From positions 1 through 26,685 of the IMG/VR virus record IMGVR_UViG_3300044516_001552: a stretch of DNA of 26,685 nt, one strand, 5' to 3'. Each line of letters begins with the position of its first letter. The first letter of the stretch is position 1. The notes under the pieces were generated by a model. The model saw only the letters and a program-made list of their open reading frames with translations, did no database searches and was not told the DNA's origin. Below are positions 11,942 to 13,291 of the stretch, piece after piece. The DNA comes from a virus. Position numbers and translations under genes: made by a program.

Positions 11942-12169
11942 ATGAGCCAAACCAATCGAAGGCTTCCCTTTCAATGCATCCTGGGCACCGAACCAGAGGT
12001 GATCGCCAACCGTTTCACGGGTGAGTCGGTAACCCTTCCTCCTGACGCCGTAGCCGTATATGACACCATCATAGGGTGCGAACGATTCGGAGATTATAAG
12101 ACCATGCGGAAGGGCTTGGATTGGTTCCGTCGGTACTTTCCGAAGGAGTATATGATTCTGTTGGATTAA
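11942..12169 (+). CDS. Conserved small phage protein (75 aa)
   Basis: ATG 11942 with AAAAGG eight bases upstream; ATG 11936 is an alternative that overlaps the upstream stop. The segment RFTGESVTLPPDAVAVYDTIIG then MRKGLDWFRRYFPKEYMILLD is distinctive and I recall it from other phage and prophage genomes, always without a function. Its final codons and stop form part of the next promoter palindrome. Confidence 0.68.
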   Translation: MSQTNRRLPFQCILGTEPEVIANRFTGESVTLPPDAVAVYDTIIGCERFGDYKTMRKGLDWFRRYFPKEYMILLD

Positions 12170-12217
12170 TGCAACACCCCAGGGGTTGGTTGCCAGCCTC
12201 TGGGGTACCTGTAGAAT
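12160..12217 (+). promoter_or_regulatory. Island promoter unit 3 (palindrome overlaps a stop codon)
   Basis: GTTG-N8-CAAC at 12160-12175 spans the end of the upstream gene, including its TAA. TTGCCA 12190-12195, 16-bp spacer ending CTGGGGTACCTG, TAGAAT 12212-12217. Offset 30 bp. Expected start near 12225, where the duplicated leader begins. Confidence 0.75.
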
Positions 12218-12224
12218 CCAAACC

Positions 12225-12261
12225 ATAGCACTGGTCATCCGAGGCTCTAATCCGCCCCTGC
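12225..12261 (+). ncRNA. Leader copy A: candidate small RNA or 5' leader
   Basis: The 37 bases beginning ATAGCACTGG, right at the predicted start of promoter 3, match copy B at 12830-12866 at 32 of 37 positions without gaps. No gene starts between here and the next promoter unit, which begins 14 bases later. Conservation without an ORF suggests an RNA or a binding site; no clear terminator is seen. Confidence 0.35.
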
Positions 12262-12274
12262 GCGTTATTAATCC

Positions 12275-12332
12275 GTTGCGCCCATACAACGGTTCGAGCC
12301 CCTCTTGCCACCGCCTCTGGCTCCTGTATACT
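12275..12332 (+). promoter_or_regulatory. Island promoter unit 4
   Basis: CCGTTG-N8-CAACGG (12273-12292, a 6-bp arm version), TTGCCA 12305-12310, 16-bp spacer ending CTGGCTCCTG, TATACT 12327-12332. Offset 30 bp. It is in tandem, 115 bp downstream of promoter 3. Confidence 0.78.
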
Positions 12333-12364
12333 TTGCGCATGTCAACGATGAAAGCGAAAACAGA

Positions 12365-12580
12365 ATGAACCTACGCACCGCAGCCGCCCTCCGTCTGGTC
12401 CTTGATAAGGACCGTCTGGAGCGTGAGATGGAATACCGTCGGTCCCTAGCCGAGTCCTACAGGTTCAGTGGCCAACCTGGTTCGAACGAAGTCTACCAGC
12501 AAGCCTTGAGCGACGTGGAAGGGCTTCAAGACCTTTGGAATCTACTTGACCACCTGGAGACTGAATATGCTTTCGCCTAA
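12365..12580 (+). CDS. Hypothetical helical protein (71 aa)
   Basis: ATG 12365; the in-frame TTG at 12305 is the -35 box. The product is helical and charged (LRLVLDKDRLEREMEYRRSLAESYRF ... DVEGLQDLWNLLDHLETEY). A nine-codon reading frame begins with ATG 12339 at the predicted transcription start and ends at TGA 12366-12368, overlapping this ATG, so translational coupling from a leaderless mini-cistron is possible. Function unknown. Confidence 0.66.
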   Translation: MNLRTAAALRLVLDKDRLEREMEYRRSLAESYRFSGQPGSNEVYQQALSDVEGLQDLWNLLDHLETEYAFA

Positions 12581-12773
12581 AGATTCCGACCGATTCTACC
12601 ACGACCAACCAACCGAAGAGGACCGCATGGACGAAGCCAACCGAGAGTGCCGCGAGATTGCCGAACAAGTAGCAGAACAGGAAGCCGAGATGGCCTACAT
12701 GAAGTGGATTGACACTATGCTTCATGCATTCTATGAGACGGAATTCCCTGACACGGAATGGGATGTTGCGTAA
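12567..12773 (+). CDS. Hypothetical acidic protein (68 aa)
   Basis: ATG 12567 overlaps the end of the gene before and follows CTGGAG. Strongly acidic helix (TEEDRMDEANRECREIAEQVAEQEAEMAYMKWID) and aromatic C-terminus. No family recognised. Its stop lies inside the palindrome of unit 5. Confidence 0.66.
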   Translation: MLSPKDSDRFYHDQPTEEDRMDEANRECREIAEQVAEQEAEMAYMKWIDTMLHAFYETEFPDTEWDVA

Positions 12774-12822
12774 AGCCAACAGGTCCAGGGCTGGTTGCCA
12801 CCGGCTCTGGTACCTGTAGAAT
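12765..12822 (+). promoter_or_regulatory. Island promoter unit 5 (palindrome overlaps a stop codon)
   Basis: GTTG-N8-CAAC at 12765-12780 covers the stop of the upstream gene. TTGCCA 12795-12800, 16-bp spacer ending CTGGTACCTG, TAGAAT 12817-12822. Offset 30 bp. No gene follows within 470 bases; the duplicated leader B is the immediate product. Confidence 0.75.
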
Positions 12823-12829
12823 CCACTCC

Positions 12830-12866
12830 ATAGCACTGGCGCACCGAGGCTCTAATCCACCCCTGC
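12830..12866 (+). ncRNA. Leader copy B: candidate small RNA or 5' leader
   Basis: Begins ATAGCACTGG at the predicted start of promoter 5 and matches copy A (12225-12261) at 32 of 37 bases. The distance from each -35 to the next palindrome is the same in both copies (85 bp), so the whole unit was duplicated. With no gene downstream for hundreds of bases, a non-coding RNA is the simplest product. Confidence 0.38.
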
Positions 12867-12878
12867 TTGACGCCAATT

Positions 12879-12896
12879 TGTTGTTTCCACACAACA
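12879..12896. promoter_or_regulatory. Promoterless palindrome TGTTGT-N6-ACAACA
   Basis: A perfect 6-bp-arm copy of the island palindrome, 51 bp after the predicted start of promoter 5, as in the duplicate. No TTGCCA/TANAMT core is at the usual distance. Confidence 0.6.
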
Positions 12897-12963
12897 CTCC
12901 GGCGCGAGACGTTTGGACCATTGTAACATGCGGAGCGCCATAGAGGCAATCAATGCGGTGCGA

Positions 12964-12981
12964 TGTTGTGTGGATACAACA
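12964..12981. promoter_or_regulatory. Promoterless palindrome TGTTGT-N6-ACAACA (second)
   Basis: Another perfect copy, 85 bp after the previous one. At the expected -35 position only GCGCCA is present and no -10 is visible, so the promoter is decayed or absent. Confidence 0.6.
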
Positions 12982-12987
12982 AACTGG

Positions 12988-13070
12988 CAGGATCGCGCCA
13001 GGATCGACGGAATATTGGAATGGTACTGGGACCTTCCTGCGGTCCTCTGAGGCGCTTGGAGGCGCTTGGA
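12988..13070. repeat. Two short direct-repeat pairs
   Basis: CAGGATCG occurs at 12988-12995 and 12999-13006, an 11-bp period. GGCGCTTGGA occurs twice in tandem at 13051-13070. Between them GGACC (13029-13033) and GGTCC (13041-13045) form a small stem. Function unknown. Confidence 0.45.
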
Positions 13071-13136
13071 ATCGTTCGGATTTTCGGGCGCCTCTGGTGC
13101 TCGGGCTAAGGTCCTCTGCCTGGTTCTGCCTGCGGC

Positions 13137-13151
13137 TGAGAATGATTCTCA
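13137..13151. promoter_or_regulatory. Fur-box-like palindrome
   Basis: TGAGAATGATTCTCA is a perfect 7-1-7 palindrome differing from the Fur 7-1-7 consensus (TGATAATNATTATCA) at two symmetric positions; this variant is common among bacterial Fur sites as I recall. No clear core promoter overlaps it. Host Fur binding is inference. Confidence 0.5.
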
Positions 13152-13187
13152 TCCACCCACTAGCACCGTTCCGCGAAACTCTCCGCG

Positions 13188-13217
13188 ATTAATCTACCGA
13201 CCGGTCGGTTAATTAAT
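13188..13217. promoter_or_regulatory. Long palindrome with ACCGACCGGTCGGT core (TetR-operator-like)
   Basis: The 14-bp core 13196-13209 is a perfect palindrome. The flanks ATTAAT and ATTAAT extend symmetry to 30 bp with only the two bases next to the core on each side unmatched. Cores with ACCGACCGGT are typical of TetR-family operators. It lies about 45 bp upstream of the -35 at 13264. Confidence 0.5.
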
Positions 13218-13222
13218 GCTTT

Positions 13223-13291
13223 GTTGCACGGATACAACGAAAGTGGTACGGTTTCTGTACTGGTTGCCGCTAGGTCTGGTGCCTGTATACT
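13223..13291 (+). promoter_or_regulatory. Island promoter unit 6 (palindrome one turn further upstream)
   Basis: GTTG-N8-CAAC 13223-13238, TTGCCG 13264-13269, 16-bp spacer ending CTGGTGCCTG, TATACT 13286-13291. The offset is 41 bp, 11 bp more than the usual 30. Confidence 0.72.

Follow-up and report, generated by a model that had tools for sequence, protein, structure and literature searches.

Phages are known to encode trans-acting small RNAs, among them lambda PreS and AgvB (reviewed in PMC12197685). Two further types of short phage RNA element can be compared with the locus described here. Solitary repeat units give rise to RNA anti-CRISPRs (Racr), in which a repeat-sized RNA with a hairpin, located directly behind a strong phage promoter, mimics the clustered regularly interspaced short palindromic repeat (CRISPR) of the host and ties up Cas proteins (PMC10651486). 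In HK022, the antitermination RNAs putL and putR have a length of approximately 70 nt with two stem-loops and work in cis (PMC9378689). In this study, positions 1 to 26,685 of the IMG/VR virus record IMGVR_UViG_3300044516_001552 were analyzed (26,685 nt; hereafter the window), with a focus on a 37-nt leader, termed the core, that occurs twice on the plus strand (copy a, 12225-12261; copy b, 12830-12866). The best reading of these data is that the core represents a new and very strictly conserved family of phage small RNAs. We consider it reasonably probable that each copy is a free-standing small non-coding RNA gene whose product works in trans on a host component that is itself invariant. The core resembles PreS and AgvB as a short non-coding phage RNA with a presumed action on the host, and differs from them in having no Rfam match. 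To our knowledge, neither such strict conservation over divergent T4-like phages nor a doubled gene has been described for trans-acting small RNAs of phages.

The original prediction had proposed a duplicated promoter-leader unit at 12160-12290 and 12765-12895, and this was borne out by a direct repeat of 132 nt (12159-12290 and 12764-12895) with 73% identity between the copies. Both cores are preceded on the plus strand by a promoter of the form TTGCCA-N16-TAGAAT (12190-12217 for copy a, 12795-12822 for copy b), and the same architecture stands ahead of the core in relatives. The predicted RNA reads ATAGCACTGG-TCAT-CCGAGGCTCTAATCC-GCCC-CTGC in copy a (predicted start 12225) and ATAGCACTGG-CGCA-CCGAGGCTCTAATCC-ACCC-CTGC in copy b (predicted start 12830). 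Alignment of 12225-12261 with 12830-12866 reproduced the expected 32 identities in 37 positions, and the five differences are the four bases of the predicted loop plus one further base. With up to three mismatches allowed, two core matches were observed in the window, while 0.01 were expected from shuffled sequence.

For the comparison with other genomes, the core was defined as CATAGCACTGG-N4-CCGAGGCTCTAATCC-N4-CTGC, counted from the predicted transcription start. The search pattern suggested earlier had to be corrected, since the gap between ATAGCACTGG and GAGGCTCTAATCC comprises six bases; N7 finds nothing even in the window, N6 does. Exact matches to the core were recovered in 10 IMG/VR contigs besides the window, all contigs being fragments, and together with the window they fall into six lineages (the window with L083, L084 and L091; L001; L002; L082 with L088; L086 with L087; L089). 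In nine copies from the six lineages, 30 columns are identical, beginning one base ahead of the predicted start and running to +37, and conservation ends at 37 nt. Variation within the core is confined to the first four-base block (TCAT, CGCA, ACGT, ATGC, ACAT, TCGT) and the second four-base spacer. Identity between copies amounts to 19-89% over the 37 nt ahead of the core and mostly to 11-50% over the 37 nt behind it, with the highest values found for copies of close lineages and with most flanks close to background. Proteins common to the core-bearing lineages have a median identity of approximately 55-75%. Conservation of the leader from the predicted transcription start, as claimed before, was therefore recovered, and the case named as a refutation (a leader that varies freely behind kept promoters) was found in reverse. 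With a leader kept across lineages while promoter and flanks vary, the suggestion that the RNA is the product gains support.

Near-variants of the core were not detected in five IMG/VR scans with different sub-patterns; simultaneous changes in several blocks would escape these scans. One extra match from a scan with looser gaps (L220) was taken as chance, as no promoter lies ahead of it and the region reads as coding. Across 92 loci, the search for diverged copies gave 20 exact cores, and the remainder was at chance level only. GenBank phages and PLSDB plasmids contained no relevant match. Three lineages carry two copies per phage. Copy a is preceded by the same gene (11942-12169 in the window), which is 74% identical in L001 and L002, and copy b of the two-copy lineages is located 0.6-1.2 kb before a gene of the GP88 family; the single copy of L088 lies approximately 1 kb before GP88 as well. 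A replicative helicase encoded by the L002 phage shares approximately 62% identity with its cyanomyovirus counterparts, and a CobS-like ATPase and a peptidase encoded in the window belong to this phage group as well, so that the core-bearing phages are, by these gene affinities, T4-like myoviruses. The two copies of L091 show no difference from the -10 element through CTGC, the CGCA loop included, while the near-identical phage of the window has differing loops; the identity in L091 looks like gene conversion between the copies.

A promoter of the sigma-70 type, as judged by consensus match only, is located directly ahead of every copy with readable upstream sequence. The core starts 6-7 nt after the -10 element in all copies, whichever promoter is present (TTGCCA/TAGAAT, TTGACA/TATTAT or TTGCCG/TATAAT), and this fixed distance places the predicted 5' end of the RNA at AUAG. 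The surroundings of the core bear on an alternative that we regard as rather improbable, namely a cis-acting leader. Here, the 37-nt RNA would bind RNA polymerase or Nus factors on the nascent transcript and give read-through of terminators, in the manner of HK022 put or lambda nut. Host factors of this kind would account for the invariance, the core hairpin is followed by a GCUCU stretch that is faintly boxA-like, and the core forms the very 5' end of the RNA predicted from early promoters, with two such sites in each phage of three lineages. HK022 likewise has two similar put sites, with putL just downstream of the early promoter PL (PMC9378689). However, the core has half the length of put and is weakly structured, with one short hairpin instead of two stem-loops. 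In L086 and L087, no sense gene follows; the next gene downstream is encoded on the opposite strand (213 aa, PHROG 18122, E 1e-11) and ends 96 nt after the predicted RNA start, so the core is not an mRNA leader there and, judged by layout, has no gene to serve in cis. In L089, the unit is closed at 79-105 nt by a hairpin followed by a T-run (TATTTTTT), and a separate promoter serves the next gene. In the window, too, a separate promoter (12305-12332), 80 bp further on, precedes the gene after copy a. The arrangement in L086/L087 and the hairpin with T-run in L089 correspond to the independent unit asked of a phage small RNA gene, and the layout is thus stand-alone in one lineage, while a second one probably shares it. 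A good terminator at 354-375 nt was found for copy b of L002, which suggests that the transcript length may differ by lineage.

The predicted RNA may form a hairpin at 12227-12246 in copy a and at 12832-12851 in copy b (both plus strand), of the form AGC(a)CUGG-N4-CC(g)AGGCU, with seven pairs, a bulged A and G and a variable four-base loop. For most copies, RNAfold gave a closely similar hairpin in which the variable block forms the loop, and the alternative fold with A6 and G17 bulged reaches the seven pairs. That most of the variation sits in the predicted loop is consistent with this hairpin. The core contains no ATG, GTG or TTG start, the third codon positions are invariant in the sole open frame, and the N4 block alters residues. 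For these reasons the core was considered non-coding, and a peptide (IAL..RGSNP) was rejected. ARAGORN identified no tRNA.

Invariance alone would fit DNA as well as RNA, and we therefore weighed a DNA element, in which the duplex between +1 and +37 would be the binding site of a protein, as an operator or a pause or origin signal, the RNA being incidental. GG-N4-CC lies within an imperfect dyad, and the fixed place at the start site would suit a repressor. On the other side, the core spans 37 bp and is asymmetric outside the dyad, it was found only downstream of promoters and in a single orientation, and the other early promoters of the window are all without it. Taken together, we judge this explanation unlikely, slightly more so than the cis-acting leader.

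The 24-base core pattern was absent from the genomes of 84,980 bacterial species (one genome each), and the 15-mer CCGAGGCTCTAATCC was found in 91 scattered, unrelated genome stretches, once each and hence in no array. Both results argue against a CRISPR repeat, a host homologue and a perfect antisense target in the host. Mimicry of a host CRISPR repeat, as in Racr, is held to be very improbable and would have to involve a diverged mimic, since the resemblance in size (37 nt), in a hairpin with a possibly variable loop and in the position directly behind a strong phage promoter is met by no genomic CRISPR repeat with the core sequence, no Rfam CRISPR-repeat family and no NCBIfam match to an anti-CRISPR or other named neighbor among ten neighboring proteins. 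In a separate comparison, UCUAAUCC was aligned as antisense to positions 785-792 of 16S ribosomal RNA (GGATTAGA, the 790 loop); complementarity over 8 nt is at the level expected by chance and is outscored by other 16S tiles, so it was rejected as a target and kept as a weak lead only.

For the free-standing trans-acting RNA, the following course can be proposed from the sequence. A strong early promoter of the sigma-70 type would yield an RNA starting at AUAGCACUGG, whose working part would be the first 37 nt, i.e., the short hairpin with its freely variable four-base loop, followed by CUAAUCC and CUGC, both invariant and single-stranded. Beyond the core would come a tail specific to the lineage, with a terminator in some lineages. 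The RNA would work in trans early in infection, as antisense RNA or decoy, and its partner would be a host component that is hard to change, either an RNA or an RNA-binding protein. In a more specific form, which we put forward tentatively and hold to be unlikely as it stands, the core would belong to a new class of RNA inhibitors, in which a short phage RNA, sometimes encoded in two copies, mimics or captures one invariant host molecule such as a defence guide RNA or a site of the ribosome or polymerase.

Several points speak against the trans-acting RNA. Its transcription is a prediction, and similar leaders directly behind the -10 element are also seen among other early mRNAs of the group (CCATGATGAA). 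The predicted hairpin has low stability in RNAfold (about -4 to -7 kcal/mol for 40 nt), and in some copies another fold scores better. Of the covarying homologues that were to be sought, the homologues were found, and covariation is absent, as no hairpin pair varies among the copies; this neither supports nor contradicts the hairpin itself. The covariance models of Rfam 15 returned only eukaryotic families at chance level and none above threshold. A clear terminator near the core is missing in most copies, including both copies of the window. Finally, no target emerged from the comparisons made. In the phages' own contigs, no clear excess of antisense sites over shuffles was observed outside the core sites themselves, a result that counts in favor of the trans-acting reading.

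Further features surround the two copies. A palindrome GTTG-N8-CAAC precedes the -35 element by 30 bp in both (12160-12175 and 12765-12780) and is common to most other early promoters of the window. Between 11179 and 19064, the motif, in its fuller form GTTGTA-N4-TACAAC, stands exactly 30 bp before the -35 element (start to start) at eight of ten early promoters, and at the other two the distance is 18 or 41 bp, a shift of approximately one helical turn in either direction. Spacing phased in this way suggests an activator site. A second palindrome had been counted as part of the unit. Its placement 85 bp after each -35 element (12275-12290 and 12880-12895) was correct, but it was rejected as a component, because copy b of L002 has none at the corresponding place, and neither do L086, L088 and L089. 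The site after copy a belongs to the next promoter as its upstream palindrome, with the usual 30-bp spacing from 12275 to 12305. Among the L001-L076 promoters, other start-site leaders of early mRNAs, namely CCATGATGAA, TTGATTGAGA, GCTAAGTTAAACAAAAGGA and ACATAGGGCAAACA, recur at many promoters.

Downstream of copy b, approximately 470 bases had been described as free of genes, in line with our data: the next promoter lies at 13264, 469 bp further, and the DNA 3' of copy b is non-coding. This stretch (12867-13222, plus strand) contains blocks kept in L001 and L002, e.g., GGACCTTCCTGCGGTCCTCTGAGG. Open reading frames within it or across copy b were not clearly conserved as proteins in L001 and L002, as judged by alignment and an open reading frame test. 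Facing copy b on the minus strand is a promoter-like site at 12920-12949 (TTGCCT-N18-TACAAT with TG before the -10 element), kept as TATAAT in L001 and L002; this predicted convergent extended -10 promoter would give an RNA antisense to copy b. The non-coding stretch also includes a near-perfect palindrome of 30 nt (ATTAATCTACCGACCGGTCGGTTAATTAAT, 13188-13217), at the place of which L091 has a different sequence. In L001, boxes resembling DnaA sites (TTATCCACAG) occur approximately 300-400 nt past copy b (9148), and none is present at that place in the window.

Set against the protein identities of approximately 55-75%, the thirty invariant bases of the core indicate a constraint that exceeds the one acting on the compared protein genes. 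As a rule, conservation this strict reflects contact with an unchanging partner. The putative RNA would thus point to a host target or a defence that these uncultivated T4-like phages must meet, and its exact core can serve as a probe for metatranscriptomes and hosts.
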